Shown: piece after piece, positions 14,481-30,566 of the stretch | Layout of the letters: each line of letters opens with the position of its first letter | Numbering within the stretch: position 1 is the first letter of the stretch | Assembly (NCBI RefSeq): GCF_900100925.1 | Contig: NZ_FNKO01000002.1 | Coordinates: 1,426,001 to 1,490,000, forward strand | DNA from: Actinopolyspora saharensis | GTDB taxonomy: Bacteria > Actinomycetota > Actinomycetes > Mycobacteriales > Pseudonocardiaceae | DNA length: 64,000 nt | Reading direction: 5' to 3' | The notes under the pieces: generated by a model | Told to the model about the DNA's origin: nothing | Database searches by the model: none | The model's input: the letters and a program-made list of their open reading frames with translations, nothing else | Position numbers and translations under genes: made by a program

Positions 14481-15527
14481 ATGACGTCGACGATGAAGGC
14501 CGTGCAGTACCGCCGGGTGGGCAGCAGCCCGGAAGTGGTCGACGTGGACATCCCGGAACCCGGCCCGGGAGAAATCCTGCTCAAAGTGGACGCGGCCGGG
14601 ATGTGCCACTCGGACCTGGCCGTGATGGGCTGGCCCGCGGAGCAGTTCCCGTACCGGTTGCCGTTGACGCTGGGCCACGAGGGCGTCGGCACCATCAGCG
14701 CGTTCGGCCCCGGTCGACACCGGTACTCCGAGGGCGACCGGGTCGCGGTGTACGGGCCGTGGGGCTGCGGGCTGTGCCGCATGTGCTCCTACGGCAAGGA
14801 GAACTACTGCCGCTACGCGGGCCGGATGGGCATCAACCCTCCCGGGCTGGGTGCCCCCGGCGCCATGGCCGAGTACCTGCTCGTGGACGACGAGCGCCAC
14901 CTGGTCCCGCTGGGCGATCTCGACCCGGTGGAAGCGGCCCCGCTGACCGATGCGGGCCTGACCCCCTACCACGCGATCAAGAAATCGCTCCCGAAGCTGG
15001 TCCCCGGCAGCACCGCCGCGGTGATCGGGGCGGGCGGCCTCGGTCACGTGGGCATCCAGCTGCTGCGCGCGCTCACCTCCGCTCAGGTCGTGGCCATGGA
15101 CATCAACGACCAGAAGATGGAGCTGGCCGAGCGGGTCGGCGCGCACCGCACGATCCGCTCCGACGACTCAGCACCGGAAGCGGTCTCCGAGCTCACCGAC
15201 GGGAAGGGCGCGGAGGCGGTGTTCGACTTCGTCGGCAACGCGGCCACCACCCGCATCGCCTCCCGCTGCGTCACCACCGAAGGGGAGATCGCGATAGTGG
15301 GAGTCGGCGAGGGCACGATCCCGGTCGGTTTCGGCACGCTGCCCTTCGAGGCCGCGGTCTCGGCGCCCTACTGGGGAACCAGGGGCGAGCTGATGGAACT
15401 GCTCGAACTGGCCGGGCACGGTTCGGTCCGGGTGCACGTGGACTCGTTCCCGCTGGAGGAGACCCCGCAGGTCTACGAACGGTTCCACCACGGAGAGATC
15501 GCCGGTCGGGCCGTGATCGTGCCGTGA
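14481..15527 (+). CDS. Zinc-dependent alcohol dehydrogenase
   Basis: A 348-residue medium-chain dehydrogenase. It has the catalytic zinc site (AAGMCHSDL and GHEGVG), the structural zinc cysteines in CGLCRMCSYGKENYC, and the Rossmann motif VIGAGGLGHVGIQLL. This is an NAD(P)-dependent primary alcohol/aldehyde dehydrogenase of the AdhP/AdhT type; the substrate is undetermined. I chose ATG 14481 because GAGG lies just upstream and the family begins with MKAVQY four residues later. Repeat copies flank the gene on both sides, B upstream and C downstream, so the gene sits in a repeat-bounded 1.5-kb block. Confidence 0.92.
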   Translation: MTSTMKAVQYRRVGSSPEVVDVDIPEPGPGEILLKVDAAGMCHSDLAVMGWPAEQFPYRLPLTLGHEGVGTISAFGPGRHRYSEGDRVAVYGPWGCGLCRMCSYGKENYCRYAGRMGINPPGLGAPGAMAEYLLVDDERHLVPLGDLDPVEAAPLTDAGLTPYHAIKKSLPKLVPGSTAAVIGAGGLGHVGIQLLRALTSAQVVAMDINDQKMELAERVGAHRTIRSDDSAPEAVSELTDGKGAEAVFDFVGNAATTRIASRCVTTEGEIAIVGVGEGTIPVGFGTLPFEAAVSAPYWGTRGELMELLELAGHGSVRVHVDSFPLEETPQVYERFHHGEIAGRAVIVP

Positions 15528-15649
15528 AGCTCGGAGTTCCGGACTCCCCTCGGCGACGGCAAACCCCCGGTTGTAGTGCCCGCGCGGGTAGGAGGAGCGC
15601 TCACTCGGTCGGGTCGCTTTCCCCCACCCGGGCGAACCGAACCGCCGAA

Positions 15650-15845
15650 ACCCCGGACAGGAACCTCCAGCAGAAGGGCACCGTCCGACGCGGGCGCTCT
15701 GAGCCTACGCAGTCGGCACCGCCGGGGTTCTCAGTCTCGGGTCTCGCGAGGACAGCCTCGACGTTGTGTAGGTGCCTACCCGATGTCGAGGATCCCGCAG
15801 CGAGATCCCGACTGAGGTTCCCCGCAGAACCACCCAAGCAGACCA
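15650..15845 (-). repeat. Dispersed structured repeat, copy C (head + one tail), inverted
   Basis: The copy lies between convergent genes, in the opposite orientation to A, B and D. Stems: CTCAGTC 15730-15736 with GACTGAG 15810-15816, GTCTCGC 15741-15747 with GCGAGAT 15800-15806 (one G-U pair), CCTCGAC 15756-15762 with GTCGAGG 15785-15791, and the 22-nt loop 15763-15784. One tail unit is recognisable at about 15665-15720. The 15528-15649 stretch between the stop codon and the tail shows nothing I recognise. Confidence 0.83.
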
Positions 15846-15871
15846 AGCCGCGTACTCTCAGTCAGGTACAG

Positions 15872-17626
15872 CTACAGGTCCTCGACGTAGGGGACGTCCA
15901 GCACCGCCCCCGAGCTCATCCACCGCCGGATGGCCAGCGTGGCCCGGACGTCGTCCTCGTTGTACTCCAACAGCCGTTCCCGCTGGGCGACGTCCGGCTC
16001 ACCGCCGTCGAACCCGACCGCGTCCCGATACCAGCGCATCGAGTTCTCCCCGCCCGCTTCGGAGTCGCGCCAGGAGAAGCCCGCGTTGGGCGCGATCATC
16101 TTCAGCCCCTTGCCGTTGGGGCAGATGAACTGGTCCCGCACCACCGCGAACACGTCCACCCAGTCCGTGGAGCTCACGAACTCGCGCACCTCCTCCACGG
16201 GAGGAATGCCCGGTTTTCCCGCGAAGCGCTCCGCCGAGCTCAGCATCCAGCGGTTCTCGGCGAGCTCGTTGTAGCAGTAGGCCCGGAACACGAGCCCGCG
16301 CTCGTGCGTGGCCCGGCGCAGCGCGGAGAACCAGGCCCAGAACTCGGCGAAGGACCGCGCCTCGTCGTCCGAGGGCAGCGGATCCCAGGTCACGAAGCCC
16401 CGGTAGCCGGGCTCCACACCCAGCGCCTCGGCCGTGCCCCGCGAACCGGGGCCCTCCTCCTCGGGGTAGGTGAGCAGCGCGCCCCAGAGGTAGGCGCCCG
16501 AGTCCGAGTAGCTCTCCATGTCCACGTCGACTTCCACGTCTCCCCTGGAGATGTCCACCTCCGGGACGCGGCGCACCAGGGAGAGCCCGCGCAGCCACGC
16601 GCGCGCCAGCAGCACCGACTCGCCCAGGCGCTTGGCCGGGAGCGGCGGCTCCGCGAACTCCGCGACGTTCAACGCGGCCAGCTCGTCCACCTTCGTCACG
16701 CCCACCCGGCGCAGCCGCACCGCGTCGTCCCCGCGCACCACGAGGCTCACGTCGTGCGCAGAGCGGAGCTGGCTCTCGCAGACCGGCCACCAGGGGCAGC
16801 CCTTGCACTCCGTGATCCGCGTCGGCTGGGCCAGCGCCTCCCCGCCCGTGGCTGCCGCCTCGGCCACGGCCAGCCGGTCCGCGAACCGCTCGTCGTACTC
16901 CTCCAGCACGCTGCGCTCGCCGGACCAGGTGCGGGACTCGAGGTCGTGCCAGACCACGACCTCGCCGTCGGAACCGATCGTGCCGCCCAGCAAACGTCCA
17001 CCCGGCTGCATCCCGCAGGCCTGCAGCAGCCGCACGGCGTGGGCCAGCCGGAGCTGGTCCCGCGAGTGCGGCCGCGGTTTGCGCTTCGGGTCGTGGCCCG
17101 CCGACTCGGGCCTGGGCTCGGTGATCGGGGAGGTGCGTGCGCCCTTGCCCGAATCCGCGACCTTGTGCCGCACCACGAGCACGGGGACGTAGCCCGCGCC
17201 GCTGCGCACCAGCAGCTCCACGGCGCCCTGCCTGCCGCCCCGGCCGTCCCGGGGGAGCCGGGCACCGGAGATGTAGGCCGTCCCCGCGCGCATCGCCGCG
17301 AGGGTCGCCTCCTCCTTGGACCGCTCGTCCGCCTCGCGGGGGATCTCCGTCCACTCGGATCCGAGCGCGCGCCCGAGCCGGCACGCCAGCTGCCTGCGGT
17401 ACTCGGTGGCATCGGCGATGCGCTGCTCCACTCCCGGATCGGGAGGAGCCTGCTCGGTGTCGATCATGCTCGGGTCGTTGTCGAGATGCACTCGGCGGCG
17501 ACAGCGCGTCACCACGCCGCCGTCCAGCAGCACCTCTGAATCCACGCTTGCAGGGTATGTCCTCATCCCCCCGCGCGACCCCCTCACCCCGGTGAGAGAT
17601 ACGCCAACAACTCCCTCTTCGCTCAC
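15872..17626 (-). CDS. TM0106-family RecB-like nuclease
   Basis: A protein of 584 residues from the GTG at 17626, or 564 from the ATG at 17566. The N-terminal half resembles a Cas4/RecB-type PD-(D/E)XK nuclease region (GVVTRCRRRVHLDNDPS; PVLVVRHKVA) with the cysteine cluster ITECKGCPWWPVCESQL, a probable Fe-S site. The C-terminal half is RNase H-like (VDVDMESYSDSGAYLWGALL, then LEYNEDDVRATLAIRRW with the acidic triad). This two-part architecture is typical of the actinobacterial TM0106 family, thought to act in DNA repair or processing. The GTG is preferred because AGAGG lies seven bases upstream. Family assignment is firm; role is inferred. Confidence 0.82.
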   Translation of the reverse strand: MSEEGVVGVSLTGVRGSRGGMRTYPASVDSEVLLDGGVVTRCRRRVHLDNDPSMIDTEQAPPDPGVEQRIADATEYRRQLACRLGRALGSEWTEIPREADERSKEEATLAAMRAGTAYISGARLPRDGRGGRQGAVELLVRSGAGYVPVLVVRHKVADSGKGARTSPITEPRPESAGHDPKRKPRPHSRDQLRLAHAVRLLQACGMQPGGRLLGGTIGSDGEVVVWHDLESRTWSGERSVLEEYDERFADRLAVAEAAATGGEALAQPTRITECKGCPWWPVCESQLRSAHDVSLVVRGDDAVRLRRVGVTKVDELAALNVAEFAEPPLPAKRLGESVLLARAWLRGLSLVRRVPEVDISRGDVEVDVDMESYSDSGAYLWGALLTYPEEEGPGSRGTAEALGVEPGYRGFVTWDPLPSDDEARSFAEFWAWFSALRRATHERGLVFRAYCYNELAENRWMLSSAERFAGKPGIPPVEEVREFVSSTDWVDVFAVVRDQFICPNGKGLKMIAPNAGFSWRDSEAGGENSMRWYRDAVGFDGGEPDVAQRERLLEYNEDDVRATLAIRRWMSSGAVLDVPYVEDL

Positions 17627-17875
17627 ACGAACGCCTCTGCCCTGCGATTTTTCTCACGAGCGACGTGCGGGGGAGCACACGCTGCCACCCGAAAGCGCCA
17701 GAACCACGTCGCCTGCTCCGCGCACGCGGCCCCGGCGGTCCGACAGCCGGTGATCTCCGCGAAGCACGCGAAGTGCTCGCCCCGTCGTGTCGCTGCGGCC
17801 GATCGGGGCGCGGTGCTGCCTAGACTGACCGGCACAGCAGCCGTACGCCCATCCGGGCCGGAGGTGTTCGCCGTC

Positions 17876-18460
17876 ATGGCAGGTCTTAAGCGAACGCGAC
17901 GAGCGTCGGCCCGGACGCGCCGCAAGCCGGGGAAGATCGCGGACGAGGCCAAGCAGCAGCGTCGGGCGGAGCGGACGGCGCGCAAGGCGGACAAGAGGGC
18001 GGTCAAGGCCGCGCAGAAGGGCGAGCACGGGCGCATCACCCCGGGCAACGCCAAGAAGGTCGTGGGTGTGGCCAAGATCGTCGGCCCGGTGCTCGCCCCC
18101 TACGCCGCGCAGGCCGCCACCGGCGCCAGGGAGACCTACGAGCGCTTCCGGGCCCGCAGGCTCGGAGTGGCCGTGGAGGACGTCTCCCGCTTCTCCGGCC
18201 GCGGGGCGGCCCTGCACGCCCGCATCGCAGGCGACGCCAAAGCCCTGGAGGAGCTGCGGCACCGCGGGGACGGCGCGGACGAGTCCGTGACCCGCTTCGT
18301 GGACTCGGCCCAGCGCAGGCTCGAGGAGATGTCCAGCGCGGTGCGCGCGGCCGAGCGGATGCCCGCGAGCAGGAGGCGGTCGGCCCACCGGGCGGTGGAC
18401 GGGGAGCTGGGGCGCATCGAGGACGACCTGCTGCGCCGCTTCGGCGCGCGCGCCGATTGA
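17876..18460 (+). CDS. DUF6474-like basic protein
   Basis: A 194-residue protein with a strongly basic start (MAGLKRTRRASARTRRKPGK, then Lys/Arg/Ala-rich helix to about residue 50). A mildly hydrophobic stretch follows (VVGVAKIVGPVLAPYAAQAA, 62-81), then a helical tail. It resembles the uncharacterised actinobacterial family I know as DUF6474. GGAGG lies 11 bases before the chosen ATG, and TAGACT (17821-17826) could be its -10 box. The frame is open upstream to 17750, but that part does not look coding. No function can be assigned. Confidence 0.72.
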   Translation: MAGLKRTRRASARTRRKPGKIADEAKQQRRAERTARKADKRAVKAAQKGEHGRITPGNAKKVVGVAKIVGPVLAPYAAQAATGARETYERFRARRLGVAVEDVSRFSGRGAALHARIAGDAKALEELRHRGDGADESVTRFVDSAQRRLEEMSSAVRAAERMPASRRRSAHRAVDGELGRIEDDLLRRFGARAD

Positions 18461-19041
18461 GCTGCTCGAGGGTGTTGACCCGGTCGGCTCCGGTGGTCAC
18501 CCGGTGGAGCTACGCAGGTGGGTCGTCACCGGCGAAAACCCACCCCTTTCCCACTCTCCGGAACAACCGGAAAGTCGATGTAACACTTTCCATCCCTCGA
18601 ACGATCGAACCAACGGGAAGTGTGCCGGGACCGTGGCCTTCTGGATCTCCACTGACCCCCACGGCCCGGTTCGCTCCTGCGCCCCCTCGGCGCAAGTGGC
18701 GCGGTCGTGTTCGCCCCGCCCCGCGGAGCGGGCGCGCCGGAGCGGACTTCGCCCGCGCCGAAGTCCCCGCCCAGGAACGACGCAAAGTTCCACGATTCGA
18801 AAAACCGACCGTCTCGTTGAACGGTCGGTTCACGTCGGTGAGCCGCACGAGTTCGGCTCGGCCGATCAGCCCTCGAATCACGCGCCGCACCTGGTCAACT
18901 CCACTGCGGAACCGGAACTCGGCCCGCGGACGCGCCGGAGCTCGCGCGCTCCGCGACGGACGTCCGGAAGCGGATCGCCCACCCGGCAGGCCAACGGCGC
19001 GAAGGACCCGGCCGAAAACGGCCCCGGGGAGCGCGGCCGGA
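18461..19041. other. Gene-free stretch
   Basis: I see no credible gene in these 581 bases: open frames have no ribosome site and no coding bias. The only clear structure is the terminator at 18798-18830. Confidence 0.6.
18798..18830 (-). terminator. Rho-independent terminator of the APH-XRE unit
   Basis: On the minus strand AACCGACCGT (18830-18821) pairs with ACGGTCGGTT (18812-18803) and runs into five U residues (18804-18800). This is the clearest intrinsic terminator in the window. It lies about 210 bases after the phosphotransferase stop. Confidence 0.75.
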
Positions 19042-19968
19042 TCAGCGGTACGGCGACCACCGCACGGTGAAGTCGCGCTCGCGCATGGAGCGCAGCCTCC
19101 TGTGGAACTCGTCAGCGACCGACGGGTTGCTGCTCAGGTTCGGCAGCACGCTCATCGTGATCTTGAGTTCGCGCAGGTCGCGCAGCACCGGGAACCCCTC
19201 CCAGGCGACGACGTCGAAGCCGTGCGCGGCCACCAGCTGCCGGTAGGCCTCGGGAGAGCGCCCGAGCCGCAGATAACCCACCGCCATGGGAGTAAGGTCC
19301 CACTCCGGCGGGCCGACGCACAGCGAGTCGAAGTCGCACAGCACCGGCCCCTGCGGCCCCATGATGACGTTGCCCAGGTGGGCGTCCCCGTGCACGATGC
19401 TGCGGGGCAGGGCGAACTCCAGCTGTTCGACGCGCTGTTCGACGGCGTCGCAGTGCCGCTTGAGGAAGTCCCGATCCGCGCGCTCGAGCTCGTGCTCCCC
19501 CTCCGCGAGACGCCGCCTGGCGTCCGCGACCGGGCGCCACTCCCCCATCGAGGGGGGAATCTCCACGGAGTGCAGCGACCGAAGCAGCTCACCCAGCTCA
19601 TAGCCGGTCGGCTCGACACCGGAGTCGGGGATCTCCTCCCAGAGCGTCGCCACGTGCTCGCCCACCCGAACGGGCTGACGCACGCCGGGAAGCAGCCGAA
19701 CCGAGGGCATCCCCCGATCGGCGAGCCAGCGCGCGGCCTCGACCACGTTGTCGGCCCGATAGGCCAACGAGGGCGTGAGTACGATGCGCACGACCACAGG
19801 AGCCGTGCGCAGCAGGAACACTCCGTTGTTCACGAAGCGCAGCAGTCGCGCCCCACGGTGGTCCAACCCCGCGGCTGCGCAGACCTCGGCCAGCGCGGAT
19901 TCCAGTTCCGGCGGGATGTCGGACTCCCGTGCGGAGTTCGGCGGAAAAGTCATGTTTGCCGATGTCAT
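19042..19968 (-). CDS. Aminoglycoside phosphotransferase-fold kinase (APH family)
   Basis: A 308-residue protein with the APH/choline-kinase fold. The Brenner motif SIVHGDAHLGNVIMG carries the catalytic Asp and Asn, and VLCDFDSLCVGPPEWDLTPMA carries the metal-binding Asp. The N-lobe has NNGVFLLRTAPVVVRIVL (ATP-binding Lys not obvious, Arg instead). Family members phosphorylate aminoglycosides, small alcohols or unknown substrates; a resistance role is not implied. The ATG at 19968 follows GGAAG by seven bases. It lies 60 bases downstream of the XRE/TPR regulator, in the same direction, probably co-transcribed and ending at the 18800 terminator. Confidence 0.85.
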   Translation of the reverse strand: MTSANMTFPPNSARESDIPPELESALAEVCAAAGLDHRGARLLRFVNNGVFLLRTAPVVVRIVLTPSLAYRADNVVEAARWLADRGMPSVRLLPGVRQPVRVGEHVATLWEEIPDSGVEPTGYELGELLRSLHSVEIPPSMGEWRPVADARRRLAEGEHELERADRDFLKRHCDAVEQRVEQLEFALPRSIVHGDAHLGNVIMGPQGPVLCDFDSLCVGPPEWDLTPMAVGYLRLGRSPEAYRQLVAAHGFDVVAWEGFPVLRDLRELKITMSVLPNLSSNPSVADEFHRRLRSMRERDFTVRWSPYR

Positions 19969-20028
19969 GCTATGTCTTCCCGGGTAATCGCGCCGACGGC
20001 GCCCACAGGACACTCCCGCACGAGCCGC

Positions 20029-21411
20029 TCAAACCGAACGGTTCTCCCTGAACTTGCGGACCTGCTCGGAGAAGTCGAGGGCGTCCGAGTTCGTGGTGTG
20101 CTTGGCCGCTTCCAACTGCAGCGGCCGCAACCTGTCCGGCACCCGCGCCGACTTGACCTGGGCCCCGATGTCGAGGGCCTGCCTGCCGACCTTGATCCCC
20201 TGATCGACGTCACCGGCCCTTATGTGGTTCGTGGCCTGCATGCCCAGCCCGAAAACGTGGCTGCGCTGCATGTCCACGTCATAGGACTCGTTGCACTTGA
20301 TCGTCTCGGCGACGGCCAGCGGCGCGTAGTGGTCCGGGTCGAACTCGGCCAGCGCATCGTGCACCGACCCCGTCACCGCGTGCAGGTCGTTCTCATTGAA
20401 GAACCGCACCCAGTCCGGAGCCTCGTTCAACCTGGCCCGCGCGAACTCGTCCTGGGTCCTGCCCAGCATCTTCGAGACCTGGTCCGGGCGGTTGAGCATC
20501 CCGTAGGCCCAGCCCTCGTTGGCGCACATGACCGCGACCGTGAGCGAGGAACCGGAGTCCTGGGCCGCTATCTGCCCGAGCTGGAACAGCTTCAAGGCCT
20601 CGTTCGGCTGGTGGTAGTGCAGGTAAACCCGCCCCATCCTGTACAGCACGTTCGCGACCAGACTGTCGTCGTTGGCCTGCTTGGCGAACTGGAGCGCCTG
20701 CCCGAAGTGGCTCCGGGCCGGATCCATCAGCCCCATGTCGAACGAGGTCCAACCCGCCAGGCTGTGCATGTCGGCGAGCGACGTGAACAACCGCTGTTGA
20801 ACCTGGTCCGTGCAACTGGCGTGCAGCAGCTGCTTCGCCCAGTGCAACTGGGCCACGACGGCGTCACGACAAGTCCCCCCGCCGTAACGATAGTCCAGGT
20901 CGCGCAACGCTTTGGTCGCCGCCTGAATCTGCTGAACGTCGGCCATGCCGATTCGCGACGGCGCGGGCGTCTGGGCACTGGCAGCGGCCCAACCGCTCTC
21001 CTCCGCGCCGAAGACGGAAGCCCCCATAGCAACCGCCGCGGCATGGGACAGAAACTTCCGACGCTTCACCGTCTCGTCCTCCTCAGCCGGGGAGTCGCCG
21101 CTGTCCGAATCGGCGACTCTCACTGCCGTCGCCCCGTCATAGGCGAGGCCCATATACCCCCTCGGGACGCCGAGACCATCAGCGATGCGGGCCAGCACGT
21201 CGTAGGCGATGACCTGCCTGCCCTTGAGGATCTCCGAAACCTCGGATTGCGACTGTCCGGTGGCGGCCGCGATCTGACGCTGCGAAACACCGTGCTTGCG
21301 CAACAACTTGTAGATGTCGCTGATGTTCCGGCTGGCCAGAGCTTCCCGCATCTCCCGTCCGTCCCAGACCTCTGGTGCAACGAGAGAACCGCTCGAACCG
21401 ATGGTGTTCAT
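20029..21411 (-). CDS. XRE-family regulator with TPR-like C-terminal domain
   Basis: A 460-residue regulator. Residues 30-85 are an XRE helix-turn-helix (YKLLRKHGVSQRQIAAATGQ, SQSEVSEILKGR, IADGLGVPRGYMGLAYD). Residues 115-137 (RRKFLSHAAAVAMGASVFG) look like a twin-arginine-type stretch, unusual after a DNA-binding domain and common in this actinobacterial family. Residues about 165-440 are helical TPR-like repeats. It is related in layout to regulators such as NsdA of Streptomyces. The ATG at 21411 faces the divergent small-protein genes from 21632, so the 220-bp region between is a probable regulated promoter. Confidence 0.87.
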   Translation of the reverse strand: MNTIGSSGSLVAPEVWDGREMREALASRNISDIYKLLRKHGVSQRQIAAATGQSQSEVSEILKGRQVIAYDVLARIADGLGVPRGYMGLAYDGATAVRVADSDSGDSPAEEDETVKRRKFLSHAAAVAMGASVFGAEESGWAAASAQTPAPSRIGMADVQQIQAATKALRDLDYRYGGGTCRDAVVAQLHWAKQLLHASCTDQVQQRLFTSLADMHSLAGWTSFDMGLMDPARSHFGQALQFAKQANDDSLVANVLYRMGRVYLHYHQPNEALKLFQLGQIAAQDSGSSLTVAVMCANEGWAYGMLNRPDQVSKMLGRTQDEFARARLNEAPDWVRFFNENDLHAVTGSVHDALAEFDPDHYAPLAVAETIKCNESYDVDMQRSHVFGLGMQATNHIRAGDVDQGIKVGRQALDIGAQVKSARVPDRLRPLQLEAAKHTTNSDALDFSEQVRKFRENRSV

Positions 21412-21919: not shown

Positions 21920-22258
21920 GTGGACGCGATTCTGGGACAGGTTCTGCGCAACGCGGTCTGGGAACGGCTCGATGTGCTTTCCGAGCTGACTAACCGCGCG
22001 GATGCGTCGTCCCTGCTGTCCGTGGCGCGTTCCGAGCTCCCGCGGTTGACCGCGGGCTGGCGGACGCTGCTGACCGCACACGAACCGGACGAGCGAGGCA
22101 ACTGCCCCGAGTGCTCGACCTGGCTGCGCCCGCGCAAAGCACCCTGCGCGGTGTGGCGCTCCGCCTACGAGCACCTCGTCGCCGGCGGCCTCGCCCCCCG
22201 TCCCGCACGGCACCTGCGACCGGCGCAGGAACTGCGCCGAGCAGCGCCGGTGCCGTAA
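21920..22258 (+). CDS. Small uncharacterised actinobacterial protein with a CxxC segment
   Basis: A 112-residue protein (ILGQVLRNAVWERLDVLSEL and SVARSELPRLTAGWRTLLTA, then CPECSTWLRPRKAPCAVWRS and AYEHLV). The pattern of a helical half followed by a CxxC...C segment is familiar from small proteins found next to XRE/TPR regulators in Pseudonocardiaceae. No function is known. GTG start with a weak ribosome site. The last 20 residues (RPARHLRPAQELRRAAPVP) look less conserved. Confidence 0.65.
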   Translation: MDAILGQVLRNAVWERLDVLSELTNRADASSLLSVARSELPRLTAGWRTLLTAHEPDERGNCPECSTWLRPRKAPCAVWRSAYEHLVAGGLAPRPARHLRPAQELRRAAPVP

Positions 22259-22736: not shown

Positions 22737-23035
22737 GTTGCTCAGGTGGTTGCGTGGCGGAACCTCTCGCGGGCTCTCGCTCCGGCGAGGCCCGACATCG
22801 GGTAGCCACCTACACAACGTCGGGCCTTCCTCGCGAGAGCACCACGAGAGAACCCGCGGTCGGTCGGGTTGCCTGGGCTCACAGCGTCTGCGTTGGGGTG
22901 TCGCCTTGGTTGGGAGTTCCTGTTCGGGTTTTGCGTCGACTCGGCTGGCCCGCGGCGGTGCCGGCTGCTCGGGCTCACAGCGCTTGCGTTGGGGTGACGC
23001 CCTGGTCGGGAGTTCCTGCTGAGGGGGCGGAGGCT
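22737..23035 (+). repeat. Dispersed structured repeat, copy D (head + two tails)
   Basis: The head is CTCTCG 22764-22769 with CGAGAG 22845-22850, AGGCCCGAC 22788-22796 with GTCGGGCCT 22819-22827, and the 22-nt loop 22797-22818. The middle stem GCTCTCGC/GCGAGAGC is also kept. Tails lie at about 22853-22950 and 22951-23030. The stretch from GTTCGGGTTTTGCGTCGACT through GCGGCGGTGC is identical to copy A. It ends 20-25 bases from the stop codon of the isocyanide-synthase fusion gene. Confidence 0.85.
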
Positions 23036-23057: not shown

Positions 23058-26000
23058 TCACTTGCGGCGCAACCGGGCTCTGGAGCGCAGCTCCCCGTCC
23101 AGCCGCGTACCCTCCGAACGCGTTCCGCGCAGCGGCAGCTCGGTGTACTGCGCTGGCACCATCATCAACGGTTGCCTCCTGCCGAGCAGCGCGGAGTACG
23201 CGGGAACGAACCCCTGGTCGAGCAGCGAGACCGCGAAGTCGACGGCGATGTAGCCCCGAGCGTCCAGCACACCCGTTCCCTGCCAGGGCAGCAGCCCGGA
23301 CCCGCCGAGATAGGTGAACCCGCAGCGTCCCTTCGTCACGGCGCTGACCGTCAAGCGGACCCGCGGGCTGAACAACTCCTCGTAGCCCAGCTCCTCGTCC
23401 ACCCGCATGGTGGACAGGTAGCGGATCGCGTTGTGCCAGGCCCTGCGCAACACGGCCACGCGCGCCTGGCGCACCTCGGGGGAGATGTGCGTGTCGGTCA
23501 GGTTGTACACGTCCGCGTAGACCGTGCGGGCCCAGTCGAGCCGGTCCACACCGGACGGAACCGGCACCGGGACGGAGTAGACCATCGACATGACCATCTC
23601 GCGGAACAGCTGCAGCGAACGCGCGGTCACCCCCTCCGCTCCGTCCCACTTCTCCGCGCGCTCCTGCACCTGGTCCAGCGTTCGCAGCGGGTTGTCGGTG
23701 ATGTCGAAATCGGCCACCACCCGCTCCAGACAACCGCGGAAGTCGTGGAACATCTCCGGGCGGCGGGACACGACCCGCGGTCCCAACCGCTCCGCGGCCA
23801 CGGTGTCGAGCTCCCTGATCGAGACGTACCCGTCGACGCCGGCCATGCTCGCGTACTCGTGGAGCTTGCGGGTGTAGGCGCGGATCATCGAGGACGGCCG
23901 CGGACGGAAGTGCCTGCCGTCGGTGAGCACGTTGATGCGCAGCCCCGGCGGATACACGCGCCGCACGGCCTGCTGCAGCTCACGCAGGCGGACGAGCCCC
24001 CCGAGCTCGGCGATGTCCGGCAGCGGGCCGTAGGCCTTCAACCGGTTCAGGGACTGCTTGACGGGGAAACCGAGCAGCACCACCTCGACGGGTTCGCCCC
24101 GGGCCACGCAGTCGCCCACGTCGCGCTGCATGTCGGCGACGACGTAGTTGGAGCGGGACCCCTTGAGGAACTGCTTGCGGGTGAACACGTGGTGCAGGGC
24201 ACCGACGACCGCCCCCACGCGCTCCCGGTCGTCCCACCTGTTCCCGGTCTGCCCGCTGCCGGGGAACTTGGCCAGAGCGCCACAGGCCGTCCGCTCCGCG
24301 GCCCGGTCCGCGTCGTCGATCACGTTGGCCACGATGGACTCGGTCTCGGAGCCGCTGAGGCGCACCGCCCAGCGCTGGGCCGAGCGGTTCTCGCGCAGCG
24401 CGGCCACGTGCAGCTCCTCCAGCGAGTGCGTGTTGGAAAGCACCGGGCTGCGGCGCCCCAACCGCTTCCGCGGGGAGGTTTCGAAGCTGTCGATCACCGA
24501 TGCCGCCGCGGCACCGGTGCGCTGTTCCGCGGTCCCGTTCACCGAACCACCGTCGCGCTGGCGGGGCATCACCTCACCCGCGGAGAGCGCGACCACGAAG
24601 GTCCCGTGCGCGTCGACGGGCCTGCCGAGGTCCCGGGCCATCTTGTCGTCGAAGACCGCAACGACCTCCGCCTGCCCGAGTTCGCGCAGGCGGCGCACCG
24701 TCCACTCGGCGACCGACTCGGTGCTCTCCTCCGGGACGTGGATCAGGTCCGCCTCCGGAACTCCGGTCTCGTCCAGCGCCTTTCGCACGTACTCGCCGTC
24801 CCGGTCGCCGGAGAAGCAGAAAACCACCCGTCCTCCCGCGTCCCTGACGTCCCACACGAACCGGGGAAGTCCACTGTGCACCGACCCCGCCCACAACGGG
24901 GCCCCGGTTCGCCACTGAGCCGCTCCCCCGTCGACCGCGCACCCCTTGAACTCCCCCGGGCGGACGCGGGAGGGGATTCCCCCACCCGCCCGCCCGGGGC
25001 GGTCCTCCGATTCCGCGGAGAGATGCCCTCCACGGCACAGCGGCGCGAACGGGTCCCGGGCCTCCGGATCACCGAAGCGCTCGGTCCGCTTCCCCCCGGA
25101 GGTGACGAGGCCGCACGAATCGAGATCGACCACCACCATCGGCTGCGGAACCCGCCGGTCCCAACGCCGTTTCCTGGTGCGTTCCTGCACGGTGTGCAGC
25201 ACCCGCCGCAGCAGCGCGTCCTGCTCGGCGGGGACCGTGTGCACGAAGCCCCGCAACGGGTGCTGCCCGGAGAGCACGTCGGCGCTGTCGGCTTCCAGGT
25301 CCCGCAGCTCGGCCGCGATCACGTGCTGCACGGCCGAGCGGGTCCGCCGCGAACGAGCTCCGCGCTCGCCGAACTCGAAGCTCTCGAACCCCCCGGCCAG
25401 CGTGTCCAGCGTGCGCGCCAGCGCACGCACCCCCTCGCGCACGTCGGCCGAGGTGACCCTGCTCGCGTCGCACACCCCGGCGGCCGAGGTGATCACCACC
25501 CTGCCGGTCGCCTGCAGCTCCGGGGACAGCTCCACGGCCAGGGCTCCCACGCGCGGGGTCAGCAGCAGGGCCCCGGAGTTCTCCAGCACCAGCCGGAAGG
25601 CGCGCAGCGGCGGGCGGATGAAGTACTCCAGGAAGTAGTGCAACGCGCTCTCGTCGCGTTCGAAGCGGTTGGCCACGACCTCGCCGAGCAGGGTGCGGGG
25701 AAGTGCGGAGCAGGGACCGAGCAGCGCGGGCACGGTGACCGGGATCGTCCCCCCGGGGAACTCGGGGTGGGCGGGCAGGGGCTCGTTCGGCATCGCCGTG
25801 CGCTCCGCGTCCGAGCCCGGTCTCGCCCCGGAGGTCGCGCAGTGCATCCGCAGCATCGGATCGCCGTCGACCATCTCGACCAGATTCCACCAGTCGTCGT
25901 CGGAACGACGCTGCCGCTCCAGCGGGGCGTACGGGTCCAGGGCTCCGGTGAGCAGCGCCAACCAGTCCGGGTCGCGGCGCTTGCGGGTGCTGCGCAGCCG

Positions 26001-26228
26001 GATCAGCACCCGGTAGAGCCGTGTCCAGGTGGGAGCGGGGCCCAGCGGTATGCCGCTGCCCGCGCGTTCGCCCACCAACCAGGCCAGATGGTCGCGCCAC
26101 ACCACGCGCAGACCGTAATCGCCACCGGCCAGTATGGAGTTGGCTTCTTCCGCTTCGAGTGGCCACGTCCCGAAGGGCCGTACGATAGCCGTGCTCTTCT
26201 CGGGGCCAAGCCGGGGCCGACCGTTCAA
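23058..26228 (-). CDS. Fusion protein: NIS-synthetase-like region + HAD-like region + PvcA/Dit1 isocyanide synthase
   Basis: One open frame of 1056 residues. Residues about 675-1025 match the pyoverdine/dityrosine (PvcA, Dit1, isonitrile synthase) family: VEVVLLGFPVKQSLNRL (714-730), YGPLPDIAE (733-741), INVLTDGRHF (765-774), AYTRKLHEYASM. These enzymes turn an amino acid, usually Tyr or Trp, into an isonitrile with ribulose-5-phosphate. Residues 364-550 look HAD-like: VVVDLDSCGL (motif I, 366-375), FCFSGDRDG (470-478) and VVAVFDD (522-528). Residues about 110-250 distantly recall the C-terminal lobe of IucA/IucC siderophore synthetases; this is weak. The TTG at 26228 is chosen for its AAGGAG seven bases upstream; an ATG at 26366 would add 46 non-conserved-looking residues. 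No PvcB-type oxygenase lies nearby. Confidence 0.75.
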   Translation of the reverse strand: MNGRPRLGPEKSTAIVRPFGTWPLEAEEANSILAGGDYGLRVVWRDHLAWLVGERAGSGIPLGPAPTWTRLYRVLIRLRSTRKRRDPDWLALLTGALDPYAPLERQRRSDDDWWNLVEMVDGDPMLRMHCATSGARPGSDAERTAMPNEPLPAHPEFPGGTIPVTVPALLGPCSALPRTLLGEVVANRFERDESALHYFLEYFIRPPLRAFRLVLENSGALLLTPRVGALAVELSPELQATGRVVITSAAGVCDASRVTSADVREGVRALARTLDTLAGGFESFEFGERGARSRRTRSAVQHVIAAELRDLEADSADVLSGQHPLRGFVHTVPAEQDALLRRVLHTVQERTRKRRWDRRVPQPMVVVDLDSCGLVTSGGKRTERFGDPEARDPFAPLCRGGHLSAESEDRPGRAGGGIPSRVRPGEFKGCAVDGGAAQWRTGAPLWAGSVHSGLPRFVWDVRDAGGRVVFCFSGDRDGEYVRKALDETGVPEADLIHVPEESTESVAEWTVRRLRELGQAEVVAVFDDKMARDLGRPVDAHGTFVVALSAGEVMPRQRDGGSVNGTAEQRTGAAAASVIDSFETSPRKRLGRRSPVLSNTHSLEELHVAALRENRSAQRWAVRLSGSETESIVANVIDDADRAAERTACGALAKFPGSGQTGNRWDDRERVGAVVGALHHVFTRKQFLKGSRSNYVVADMQRDVGDCVARGEPVEVVLLGFPVKQSLNRLKAYGPLPDIAELGGLVRLRELQQAVRRVYPPGLRINVLTDGRHFRPRPSSMIRAYTRKLHEYASMAGVDGYVSIRELDTVAAERLGPRVVSRRPEMFHDFRGCLERVVADFDITDNPLRTLDQVQERAEKWDGAEGVTARSLQLFREMVMSMVYSVPVPVPSGVDRLDWARTVYADVYNLTDTHISPEVRQARVAVLRRAWHNAIRYLSTMRVDEELGYEELFSPRVRLTVSAVTKGRCGFTYLGGSGLLPWQGTGVLDARGYIAVDFAVSLLDQGFVPAYSALLGRRQPLMMVPAQYTELPLRGTRSEGTRLDGELRSRARLRRK

Positions 26229-27123
26229 CGGGTATCTCCTTGTTCTTCCTCGGACAGAGCGCGGAGACTCACGAGCTCCGCGGGTGAACCGCCCGGAGCG
26301 GGGACCACCGGGCGAGGAAGCGCGTTCACGAACCGATCGTGGGAATGTCGCGTGCGATGAGTACATCGCTTTCGTCCCGGTCGCACGGACACACGCCGGT
26401 CCGCGGGGGACGTGCCGGGAATTCGAACAGCGATGTCCACGGCCGGATCGAGGTTTTCTGTTCAGGTTGGCTCAGCTGTCCGCTCGGCGGAACCTCCCGC
26501 TCTCCACTCAGTGGACTTTCCGAGGCCGACCAGCCGTCCACACCACGTCGAACCGTCCTCGGGAGAGCACAACGCCGGAGTCCTCGCGGCGATACGAGCC
26601 GTTCGGGGGGTGGTTCCGGCACCGCCACGCCGAGAGCACCACACCGAGCGCGGGCACGACGGGAAATCAGCGCCGAGGACGCTGCGCGAGCCCCCGGGAC
26701 TACGAGTCCGAACCGGTGAGCGATCGTGCTCCGCGTGTCCGACCATGATCACGCGCACTCCGATCACGCTAATGAGCGATCTTTTCCGGCGGCAATGTGA
26801 GGGAGTGCATAATCGCGAGTCACGCGCTCCGCACCACGCGGAGCCGGGGACACGAAGACGGGGACGCGAAGCCGGGACGCGCAGACGGGGCGAGGCACCG
26901 GGGTGAAGTTCCGACCACGCGGACAGTCCCACTTTCCGGGGAACAGCCAGCCTCGACTCACCCTATCGACTGACACTCTGAAGGGCCGCTCAGAAGGCAT
27001 GATCGCCGCAGGAACGCGAGACTGGGTGGGCCGTAGCGTTCGCCGGGGCAGCAGGTTCCCGGCGACGCGTCTCGGATCAAGTCCGGAGAACGCCCAGAGC
27101 TCGTACAAGACCGAGGAGAAACC
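26229..27123. other. Gene-free divergent intergenic region
   Basis: 895 bases between the fusion gene and the TetR gene. It holds a decayed dispersed repeat (26482-26592), a short tandem array at 26845-26890 of about 14-base units (CGGGGACACGAAGA, CGGGGACGCGAAGC, then a 13-base version) and a small palindrome CGATG-AGTA-CATCG near 26355. No open frame here has both coding bias and a ribosome site. Confidence 0.55.
26482..26592 (+). repeat. Decayed copy E of the dispersed repeat
   Basis: It retains GGCGGAACCTC at the left, CCACACCACGTCGA in the loop/inner stem, TCCTCGGGAGAGCAC on the right arm and a tail-like GCGGCGATAC. The stems are largely broken, so this looks like an old copy. Confidence 0.5.
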
Positions 27124-27771
27124 TTGCCCACCGAAGTAGCCCCGTTGCGCCGCAAACCAGTCCAGCAGCGCAGCGCCCAGCGCGTGGAACGGATGTTGGA
27201 GGCCTGCGCCCAGCTCATCGACGAGGTGGGCTACGACGGCCTGACCACCACGTTGATCGCCGAGCGGGCCGGAGTGGCGGTCGGCTCGCTGTACCAGTTC
27301 TTCCCGGACAAGCGCGCGGTGGTGCAGGAGCTCACCCTGCGCAACCTGGAGAGGTTCGTCCAAACCGTCTCCGAGCGGCTGGACCGGATGGAACTCGCCC
27401 ACTGGTGGGACGCCGTGGACACCGTCTTCGACGTGTACCTGGGCATGCACCGGGAGATCCCCGCGTTCAGCAAGCTCCACTTCGGGGACGTGGTGGACCT
27501 GCGGCTGCTGCACGAGAACAAGGACAACAACGCGGTGATCGCGGAGAAGCTGACCAGCCTCATCTCGGAGCGGTTCGGGATGAGCCCCGCCGAGCTGGAG
27601 CTGCCGCTGTCCGTGGCCGTCGAAGCGGCCGACGCGGTGCTGCACCTGGCCTTCCGGCGCGCTTCCACGGGGGACCCGACGCTGGTGAACGAGGCGCGGG
27701 AACTGGTCCGCGGCTACCTGTCCAGTCGCATCTCGGAGGATCAGCCGAAGGACCTGCCCGCCCCCCGGTAG
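27124..27771 (+). CDS. TetR-family transcriptional regulator
   Basis: A 215-residue TetR-type regulator. The N-terminal helix-turn-helix is RMLEACAQLIDEVGYDGLTT, TLIAERAGVAVGSLYQFFPD and KRAVVQELTLRN, with the canonical YQFF motif; the C-terminal part is a ligand-binding helical domain. Start TTG at 27124 with GAGGAG five bases upstream. Its 3' end overlaps the convergent racemase/aldolase gene by 31 bases. Target genes are unknown: the divergent isocyanide-synthase fusion, 895 bases away, and its own promoter are the obvious candidates. Confidence 0.9.
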   Translation: MPTEVAPLRRKPVQQRSAQRVERMLEACAQLIDEVGYDGLTTTLIAERAGVAVGSLYQFFPDKRAVVQELTLRNLERFVQTVSERLDRMELAHWWDAVDTVFDVYLGMHREIPAFSKLHFGDVVDLRLLHENKDNNAVIAEKLTSLISERFGMSPAELELPLSVAVEAADAVLHLAFRRASTGDPTLVNEARELVRGYLSSRISEDQPKDLPAPR

Positions 27772-29018
27772 GTCCGCGCGGACCCGACCCTTCGGCAACG
27801 AGTCGCATCCTGCCACTCGATCAGGTGGTATTCGTCGAGCCTCTCGGCGAGTTCCCCCGCCTTGGCGTGCCGGAACCACACCCGATCACCGGGACGAAGC
27901 GCACCGGCTCCCCTGCCCACCACCGGGGTCTGCACCTCGCCCACTGCCTCGGTGCCGGTCAGGCGCAGTCCGCTCGGCAGATACGGGCTGGGCAGCCGGT
28001 CCCGGCCCGCCGCGCCCGAAGCCGGATACCCTCCGGCGAACAGGGTCGCGCACCGTCGTCCGGGCCGGCGAACCACCGGCAGGGCGAACAGCACGGAGGG
28101 AAGCGGCCTGAAGTCGTGGTACGCGTCGAACAGGGTGGGACCGATCAGTCCCGAGCCCGCCGTCACCTCGGTGACGACCCGCTCCGTCGCGGTGGTTTCC
28201 AGACTTCCGGTGCCTCCCCCGTTGACGAATTCCAGCTCGGCCACTCCGCCGACCGCCTCGACCACGGCAGCGCGGCGGCGGGACAGTTCCGCGGCCGAAC
28301 GGTGCCGCACCCAGCGCACGGCAGCCGCGCGCAGCGGCTGCCCGGGCGGGGCGTCCCCCACCCCGGCGATCTGTCCTTCGTAGACCATCAGGCCGACCAG
28401 CCGGAAGGCCCTCCGCCGCTCCACCTCCCGCGCCAGCTCGCGGGCCTGCCCGGGGGAACGCACCGGGGAACGCCGCGGCCCGATGTGGACGAGCCCGGCC
28501 AGTCCGCTCCCCAGCCACGGGATCCGGCCCAGCGCGGAGTCCTCCAGGGGGCGCCAGGCCGCGTCGACCTCCAGGCACACCCGGAGCCGCTCCGCGAAGC
28601 GGCCGCCGAACCGCTCGACCAGGTCCAGCTGCTCGGCGGAGTCGACGGTGATGGTCACGGCCGAGGCCGCGCCCGGGTCGGAGGCCAGTTCGGCCAGTGA
28701 GCGGCGGTCCGCCGTCGGGTAGGCGAGGAGCAGGTCGTCGCTCACCCCTGTCCGGTACAGCCACAGCGCCTCCGCGAGGCTGTAGCACATCAGCCCGGAG
28801 AAGCCGGGGGTCCGCGCGGCCCGGTCGATCAGCTCGGGGCAGCGCACGGACTTGGTGGCCACCCGTATCGGTTTGCCCCCGGCGCGGTCCACGAGCCCGG
28901 ACGCGTTGCGGTCGAAGGCGTCCAGATCGGCCACCCCGAAGGGCGGGTCGAGCTCGGACGTGGCCGCGTCCAGCCGGGCCGCCGAAACGGCCGGGTGCGG
29001 TGCTGCGGAGGAGTTCAC
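27741..29018 (-). CDS. PLP-dependent amino acid racemase/aldolase (alanine racemase N-terminal fold)
   Basis: A 425-residue protein of the D-threonine aldolase/alanine racemase-like group, often annotated amino acid deaminase/aldolase. The PLP lysine lies in PIRVATKSVRCPELI. Other marks are FSGLMCYSLAEALWL, LEVDAAWRP, GLMVYEGQIAGVGD, LEFVNGGGTGSL and the C-terminal metal-site-like region GDRVWFRHAKAGELAERLDE. I prefer GTG 29018, preceded by TACCTT six bases upstream (leaderless), over GTG 29039. It is divergent from the lactone oxidase gene, a pairing I recall from other actinobacteria. Confidence 0.85.
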   Translation of the reverse strand: MNSSAAPHPAVSAARLDAATSELDPPFGVADLDAFDRNASGLVDRAGGKPIRVATKSVRCPELIDRAARTPGFSGLMCYSLAEALWLYRTGVSDDLLLAYPTADRRSLAELASDPGAASAVTITVDSAEQLDLVERFGGRFAERLRVCLEVDAAWRPLEDSALGRIPWLGSGLAGLVHIGPRRSPVRSPGQARELAREVERRRAFRLVGLMVYEGQIAGVGDAPPGQPLRAAAVRWVRHRSAAELSRRRAAVVEAVGGVAELEFVNGGGTGSLETTATERVVTEVTAGSGLIGPTLFDAYHDFRPLPSVLFALPVVRRPGRRCATLFAGGYPASGAAGRDRLPSPYLPSGLRLTGTEAVGEVQTPVVGRGAGALRPGDRVWFRHAKAGELAERLDEYHLIEWQDATRCRRVGSARTYRGAGRSFG

Positions 29019-29237
29019 GCCATCAAGGTAAGCCCGCACCTCTTGTTACGCGAGTTGCTTTCACATACTTTCCGCCAATCGGAGTCACGACCCCACCCGA
29101 TGCGCGAAGTACTGTCACGCCCCCGGGGGGTCCCGCGCGGGCCGGTCGCGGGAACCCGTCCGACCGCGCCGAACGTCCGACCGTTCGCGACCACCCGGGC
29201 AAGCCAATCCGCTCGACCTTTCGAGGAAGTCCCGACC

Positions 29238-30566
29238 ATGGCACTCGACACCTGGACCAACTGGGCGGCGACGAGCACCGCCACCGGTCAGCGCACGCAG
29301 CGGCCGCGCGACCCGCACGAGATCGCCCGCGCCATCACCGACGCCCGACAGCAGGGGCACAGCGTGCGGCCGCTCGGCTCGGGACACTCGTTCAGCGACA
29401 TCGCCGCCCCGCGACCGCCGCGCGAGCGGACCGGCGCGGTCGCGCTGGATCTGTCCGCGTGGACGGGAATCACCGATGTGGACCGCGGCAGCGGACTCGT
29501 CACCGCACGAGGCGGCACACCGCTGCACCAGCTCAACGCCGAGCTGGACGAGCTGGGGCTGGCCCTGCCGAACCTGGGCGACATCGACGGGCAGACGATC
29601 GCCGGTGCCGTGTCCACCGGAACCCACGGAACCGGAGCGCGACTGGGCGGACTGGCCACACTGGTGCGGGCGCTGGAGCTCGTCCGCGCCGACGGCTCGG
29701 TCCTGCGCTGCTCCCCCGAGCAGCACCCCGATGTGTTCGCCGCGGCCAGGGTCGGCCTCGGCGCGCTCGGGCTGATCAGCACTGTGACCCTGCGCTGCGT
29801 CCCGGCGTTCTCGCTGGCCGCCGAGGAGCACCCCCTCCCGCTGGACGAGGTCCTGCGGAACTTCGACGACCACGCCGCGGACAACGACCACTTCGAGTTC
29901 TACTGGTTCCCCCACACCGCGCGCACCCTGGTCAAGCGCAACAACAGGCTGCCGGAGGCAGCCCCCACTCGACCGCTGCACCCGGTGCGTTCCTGGTTCG
30001 AGTACCGGGTGCTGGAGAACGAGCTGTTCGGCGCGGTCTGCAGGCTGGGCCGCCGCAGGCCCGGACTGGTACCGGCGTTGAACCGGCTCTGCGCGACGAG
30101 CTGGTCCGGGCGGTCGTACAGCGACAGGGCCCACCGGGTGTTCGTCACGGGACGGGACGTGCGCTTCGTCGAGAGCGAGTACGCCGTCCCGCGCGAGCAC
30201 CTCCCCGCGGTGCTGAACGAGCTGCGCGCCGCCGTGCGGCGACTCCACCACCCGGTGATGTTCCCGGTCGAGGTGCGCGTGGCCGCCGCCGACGACATCT
30301 GGCTGTCCACCGCGCACGAGCGTCCGACCGCCTACGTCGCGGTCCACCAGTTCAGCGGAATGCCCCACCGCGAATGGTTCGACACCTTCGAGCGGATCGC
30401 CCGCGCGGCGGATGGAAGGCCGCACTGGGGGAAGATGCACGGCCTGTCCGCCGCACAGCTGCGCGAGAGCTACCCGCGCTTCGACGACTTCCTGCGGGTC
30501 CGCCGCCGACTCGACCCGGAACGGGTGTTCGGCAACCCCCATCTGGAGCGGGTGCTGGGCGAGTGA
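29238..30566 (+). CDS. D-arabinono-1,4-lactone oxidase family FAD oxidoreductase
   Basis: A 442-residue FAD-linked aldonolactone oxidase. The PCMH-type FAD domain has VRPLGSGHSFSDIA and DGQTIAGAVSTGTHGTGARLG, and the ALO domain follows with SDRAHRVFV, FPVEVRVAAADDIWLS, HWGKMH and RFDDFLRVRRRLDPERVF. It oxidises a sugar lactone (gulono- or arabinono-lactone) with oxygen as acceptor. ATG 29238 has GAGGAAG upstream; the frame is open to 28995 but that part runs into the divergent gene. Cytoplasmic, no signal peptide. Confidence 0.92.
   Translation: MALDTWTNWAATSTATGQRTQRPRDPHEIARAITDARQQGHSVRPLGSGHSFSDIAAPRPPRERTGAVALDLSAWTGITDVDRGSGLVTARGGTPLHQLNAELDELGLALPNLGDIDGQTIAGAVSTGTHGTGARLGGLATLVRALELVRADGSVLRCSPEQHPDVFAAARVGLGALGLISTVTLRCVPAFSLAAEEHPLPLDEVLRNFDDHAADNDHFEFYWFPHTARTLVKRNNRLPEAAPTRPLHPVRSWFEYRVLENELFGAVCRLGRRRPGLVPALNRLCATSWSGRSYSDRAHRVFVTGRDVRFVESEYAVPREHLPAVLNELRAAVRRLHHPVMFPVEVRVAAADDIWLSTAHERPTAYVAVHQFSGMPHREWFDTFERIARAADGRPHWGKMHGLSAAQLRESYPRFDDFLRVRRRLDPERVFGNPHLERVLGE

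Follow-up and report, generated by a model that had tools for sequence, protein, structure and literature searches.

A conserved NIS-like, HAD-like and isonitrile-synthase-like fusion gene in Actinopolyspora as a proposed new architectural variant of DIT1/PvcA enzymes

Isonitrile (isocyanide) synthases (ICSs) of the DIT1/PvcA type have been described in a small number of domain architectures. The passages of Lim et al. 2018 drawn on here name two that are common in bacteria, in which the ICS stands alone or is fused to a dioxygenase (DOX), and a third, with nonribosomal peptide synthetase (NRPS) domains, that occurs in fungi only (PMC5974471). Few ICSs have a demonstrated role in gene clusters, according to the parts of a 2023 fungal survey used here, which also calls for work on the bacterial enzymes (PMC10153163). 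Here we describe a gene of Actinopolyspora saharensis that encodes an ICS-like domain fused to a domain with the fold of NRPS-independent siderophore (NIS) synthetases and to a HAD-like domain. It lies in a 64,000-nt stretch of contig NZ_FNKO01000002.1 (the window); the source genome is 4.68 Mb in two contigs, with Actinopolyspora biskrensis (93%) as the closest named relative. ICS-DOX fusions and the fungal ICS-NRPS protein CrmA likewise join an ICS domain to other biosynthetic domains, whereas the partners here, an NIS-like fold and a HAD domain, lie outside the architectures named in those passages (PMC5974471). The literature searched, partly with broad searches and with most subscription journals outside its coverage, does not name an NIS-like/HAD/ICS fusion. 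With no earlier description found, it is taken as a new architectural variant of DIT1/PvcA enzymes.

The three-domain fusion architecture is real and conserved. Its open frame lies at the coordinates given in the earlier note, runs along the minus strand and begins with a TTG codon (26226-26228) that is the same in the window and six aligned Actinopolyspora loci. All ten Actinopolyspora genomes, its own included, carry the gene with a frame free of stops; in five of the ten the match is split into two or three segments that share a single frame. Ratios of nonsynonymous to synonymous substitution (dN/dS) are below 1 for all three domains in the eight pairs computed, with the strongest constraint on the ICS domain.

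The C-terminal domain is the part most readily placed. It scores 64.4 bits against PF05141 (gathering cut-off 26.4), in a match confined to positions 2-148 of the 273 in the profile, and a PvcA fold is predicted across the whole domain. Its likeness to PvcA/IsnA (PF05141; structures 3e59, 9dh4 and 9dhm) lies in this fold and in most of the conserved residues, at about 18% identity in structural alignment; the fusion differs in its length of 1056 aa with three domains and in its replaced SIHP motif. A protein search (best 7992 candidates scored) gave 75 relatives, of which 51 form the main alignment. Most residues common to stand-alone PF05141 proteins, picked by their conservation, are invariant in these 51. 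The stand-alone set comprises 12 of 18 loci tried, with L061, L066, L067, L071, L077 and L079 excluded for wrong frames or as other types. Three of these (L066, L067 and L071), stand-alone PF05141 proteins with lengths of about 375-417 aa, look unlike both the canonical set and the fusion family. Score, fold and most of the aligned residues agree with the PvcA/Dit1-type reading first made for this domain. A partner oxygenase had also been called absent, and PF02668, the PvcB-type oxygenase family, has no match in the A. saharensis genome; the control gave a match in E. coli.

For the N-terminal domain of the window protein, a structure search predicts an NIS-synthetase fold, which bears out an initial likening to IucA/IucC. 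The likeness to NIS synthetases (IucA, IucC, SbnC, AcsD and DesD) is one of fold; the domain is shortened and has no significant sequence match to them. PF04183 has no match in the fusion protein at E values up to 1 in a Pfam scan, the whole-model Foldseek search has no NIS entry among the 50 matches listed, and with the N-domain alone no Foldseek match reached E 0.001. NIS kinship rests on the predicted fold because HHalign of the N-domain against eight NIS genes, each taken as its longest frame, gave a probability of 2.6%. A match to TssG (E 0.072) stayed below the cut-off. All 51 long relatives retain an N-terminal part, the fold prediction being from the window protein alone, and shorter N-parts of 170-254 residues occur in a Longispora locus (L039) and in second Saccharopolyspora copies. 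The HGEN motif is absent from all N-domains aligned (0/47, from 50 references) and present in 8/8 genuine NIS control genes, a narrow set with seven from the same genus and one from the order.

The central region has a predicted HAD fold, as had been proposed, with residues 376-445 modelled at low confidence. A structural model without an HAD or NIS-like fold would have spoken against the domain assignments, and both folds appeared. A profile search of the Protein Data Bank matched the HAD region to acid phosphatases at E 0.02 only. Compared with class B/C acid phosphatases and LNS2-type HAD domains, the Actinopolyspora motifs are decayed: the window protein keeps the DxD and DD motifs, with motif II altered and no Lys at its place in motif III. 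Many relatives have HAD motifs that seem complete, and several lineages have a decayed or deleted HAD domain but keep the remainder of the protein. These states were assigned by hand (L013_a and L028_a, without the motif III Lys, were counted intact, and the contig-cut L031 was left unclassed), and the accompanying tree is of a quick kind with long-branch warnings. No Pfam HAD match was found in relatives L041 and P0066. The HAD domain appears dispensable. The earlier note had imagined that a single polypeptide might make and modify an isonitrile metallophore or antibiotic; the 0/47 HGEN count and the decayed HAD motifs of the genus do not support such a metallophore enzyme in which the NIS and HAD parts both work. 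An enzyme active at three steps, with ligation by the NIS-like part, dephosphorylation by the HAD part and formation of a metallophore isonitrile by the ICS, would agree with the presence of both folds and with the seemingly complete HAD motifs of many relatives, but it is very improbable given the contrast in HGEN with the NIS genes and the several lineages in which the HAD domain is decayed or deleted and the remainder kept. Two of the three domains look inactive in Actinopolyspora, as they would in a non-catalytic ICS-fold protein with a regulatory or binding role; the invariance of most residues shared with stand-alone PF05141 proteins and the constraint on the ICS domain make such a role quite unlikely.

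From the domains, predicted folds, conservation, HAD states and neighbourhoods observed, we infer a substrate, a product and each mechanistic step, and we lean towards a large DIT1/PvcA-superfamily enzyme that makes an isonitrile, with a non-ligase NIS-like part and a decayed HAD part. The ICS domain would most likely move the C1 unit of ribulose-5-phosphate, or of a similar sugar phosphate, onto the amino group of an amino acid to give the isonitrile. Because the His-containing motif of the NIS family is lost, the N-domain probably serves in binding, docking or structure and does not ligate with ATP. In the ancestral protein the HAD domain probably worked as a phosphatase, perhaps with a phosphorylated substrate or by-product as its target; its repeated loss or decay, Actinopolyspora included, makes it probable that the core reaction can do without it. 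A more elaborate synthase can also be drawn. Its NIS-fold domain, repurposed and independent of ATP, would hold or present an amino-acid or metal-binding substrate, and its in-line HAD phosphatase would process the donor sugar phosphate. Clusters that combine it with adenylation, ATP-grasp or acyl-activating genes would yield isonitrile peptides or lipids of an unknown class, and the copies of Actinopolyspora and Saccharopolyspora a conserved metabolite; we regard this scheme as rather unlikely.

The fusion occurs beyond Actinopolyspora and in other actinomycetes, which answers an early call to look for it elsewhere. A scan of genome contigs found 43 loci, chiefly in Saccharopolyspora, Actinopolyspora and Kutzneria and also in Micromonosporaceae, Streptosporangiaceae, Nocardia and Streptomyces. 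PF05141 is present in 41 of 397 genomes of the order; in 22 of these the match lies in a frame of at least 760 aa that gives no strong stand-alone hit, which serves as a proxy for the fusion. Strong stand-alone hits (E < 1e-60) occur in 13, one genome falls in both classes and seven in neither. Among 396 genomes of the phylum, a full match at E 1e-10 was found in A. saharensis only, with ICS-only matches in two others. Fourteen of 19 Saccharopolyspora loci carry a second, more divergent fusion copy about 7-10 kb downstream; three of these copies are cut by the locus end and the other 11 have complete HAD motifs. No second copy was seen in the remaining five loci within the locus DNA examined. 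At two loci (L042:7899-9389 and L044:8064-9440) the relative consists of nothing but the ICS domain and is linked to the same NsdA-like and APH genes, differently arranged.

Candidate biosynthetic clusters are found around the fusion in some relatives. Across 44 loci (the 43 and the window), an NsdA-family regulator occurs in 31, an APH-type phosphotransferase in 31 and a TetR-family regulator in 29. AMP-ligase queries matched five of the 13 loci without the NsdA/APH pair and none of the other 31, which include the window; this count is from tblastn with five queries taken from the same matching loci. Pfam was run on chosen neighbouring open reading frames (ORFs) of six loci only (L030, L033, L034 and L039-L041) and on L043 in part. 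In Catellatospora (L033) and Longispora (L039), a divergent AMP-binding gene is accompanied by a gene for a peptidyl carrier protein (PCP)-thioesterase, found by Pfam in L033 and as a 64% identical protein in L039, and by an ATP-grasp gene with a Pfam score below cut-off in both. The L033 AMP-binding gene exceeds the NCBIfam cut-off for amino-acid adenylation, and this locus additionally has an MFS transporter. Streptosporangium (L041) has adenylation-PCP, condensation-domain, ATP-grasp and ABC-transporter genes, and in Streptomyces (L043) an AMP ligase is found together with the sole P450 among loci with neighbours scanned. Several ORFs near the relatives (among them L033:10399-11601, L041:2853-4088 and L041:4110-5600) appear to be spurious frames by a codon-position check and were replaced. 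Divergent from the fusion, Micromonospora (L040:1436-7660) has a fatty-acyl-AMP-ligase-like gene, two acyl-CoA-dehydrogenase genes, a 92-aa ORF that resembles a carrier protein when judged by eye, and an alpha/beta hydrolase that shares 42% identity with one adjoining the fusion gene in Nocardia panacis (L030). This gene set is a possible isonitrile-lipid cluster and presumably resembles isonitrile-lipopeptide clusters that use ScoE, a likeness that serves as a lead only. In some relatives, adenylation, ATP-grasp and carrier proteins would probably process the product onward; the Actinopolyspora gene stands without such neighbours.

Several observations weigh against the reading favoured here. 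Possible loss of ICS catalytic residues had been raised early; most residues common to stand-alone PF05141 proteins are kept in the 51 aligned relatives, but the SIHP His is replaced by Ser, Asn, Thr or Lys in 51/51; the chemistry or substrate may therefore differ. Sequences outside this alignment diverge further, with second Saccharopolyspora copies and L043 altering some of its invariant or near-invariant residues (PW to PS in L043, DG to DP in L010b) and L044 having D in place of the Glu. The NCBIfam PvcA equivalog for L-tyrosine isonitrile synthase (NF045653) gave 31.8 bits, below its cut-off of 600, no Pfam HAD family matched the window protein at E values up to 1, and neither the window nor 38 other loci gave an AMP-ligase match by tblastn. 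There is some room, though not much, for a Dit1-like enzyme that gives no isonitrile but an N-formyl amino acid, which might go into the spore or cell wall, for example. Such a role would suit the presence of the gene throughout the genus and its changed His motif. It would also suit the syntenic NsdA-family regulator, since NsdA of Streptomyces affects both sporulation and the production of antibiotics. The five window neighbours scanned contain no P450, and among relatives five lie near biosynthetic activating enzymes, two of these with exporters, all of which speaks against such a role. Yeast Dit1, of the same Pfam family, has been reported not to be an isonitrile synthase, with formyl tyrosine as its most likely product, in the sections used here (PMC7345447); Lim et al. 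instead propose an isocyanide precursor, and thus an isocyanide product, for Dit1 also (PMC5974471, passages as above). An isonitrile product remains more likely than an N-formyl one.

Table 1. Features of the fusion gene and its surroundings (window positions unless a locus is named)
Feature	Position	Strand	Remarks
NIS-like/HAD-like/isonitrile-synthase-like fusion gene	23058..26228	-	1056 aa; TTG start
PvcA/DIT1-type isonitrile-synthase domain	23151..24233	-	residues about 666-1026; profile, fold, alignment
HAD-like domain	24471..25148	-	residues about 361-586; predicted fold; motifs decayed in Actinopolyspora
NIS-synthetase-fold domain	25239..26183	-	residues about 16-330, most structure matches spanning 84-330 and some from 16; shortened, without HGEN
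Probable ribosome-binding site AAGGAG	26236..26241	-	7 nt 5' of TTG; identical in 7/7 aligned Actinopolyspora sequences
TetR-family regulator	27124..27771	+	divergent from fusion gene; relatives common in order
NsdA-family HTH-TPR regulator	20029..21411	-	NCBIfam NF053720, 326.6 bits (cut-off 75); syntenic with fusion
APH-type phosphotransferase	19042..20013	-	syntenic; also in genomes without PF05141
Small 112-aa ORF	21920-22258	+	relatives in 27/44 loci
Alanine-racemase-fold gene and D-arabinono-1,4-lactone oxidase	27741-30566		relatives in 22/44 and 26/44 loci
Perfect 18-bp hairpin, 12-nt loop	22661-22708		downstream of fusion gene; possibly terminator
Two 70-nt direct repeats, 96 nt apart	22853-23018		81% identical; just downstream of fusion gene
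Second fusion copies	L008, L010-L013, L015, L016, L018, L021-L024, L028, L029		about 15300-19300 of each locus

Features around the fusion gene in the window are listed in Table 1. The TetR gene faces away from the fusion gene as originally described, and the hairpin and repeats that had been placed at its borders are present, both downstream; nothing ties either to the function of the fusion. The TetR gene was considered as a dedicated regulator and the APH gene as a partner enzyme, and both candidates were rejected: relatives occur in 67 and 50 of 200 genomes of the order, respectively. Relatives of both are found in all 20 of the PF05141-less genomes of the order that were listed (336 more lay outside the list), so the two are not specific partners.

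A further bacterial architecture that is genus-wide in Actinopolyspora and present in other actinomycetes, partly in apparent biosynthetic clusters, would mark unexplored products. Isonitriles bind metals. The fusion would show that siderophore-synthetase and phosphatase folds have been recruited to isonitrile (or formyl) chemistry, and its HAD-complete and HAD-less members are directly comparable within one family.
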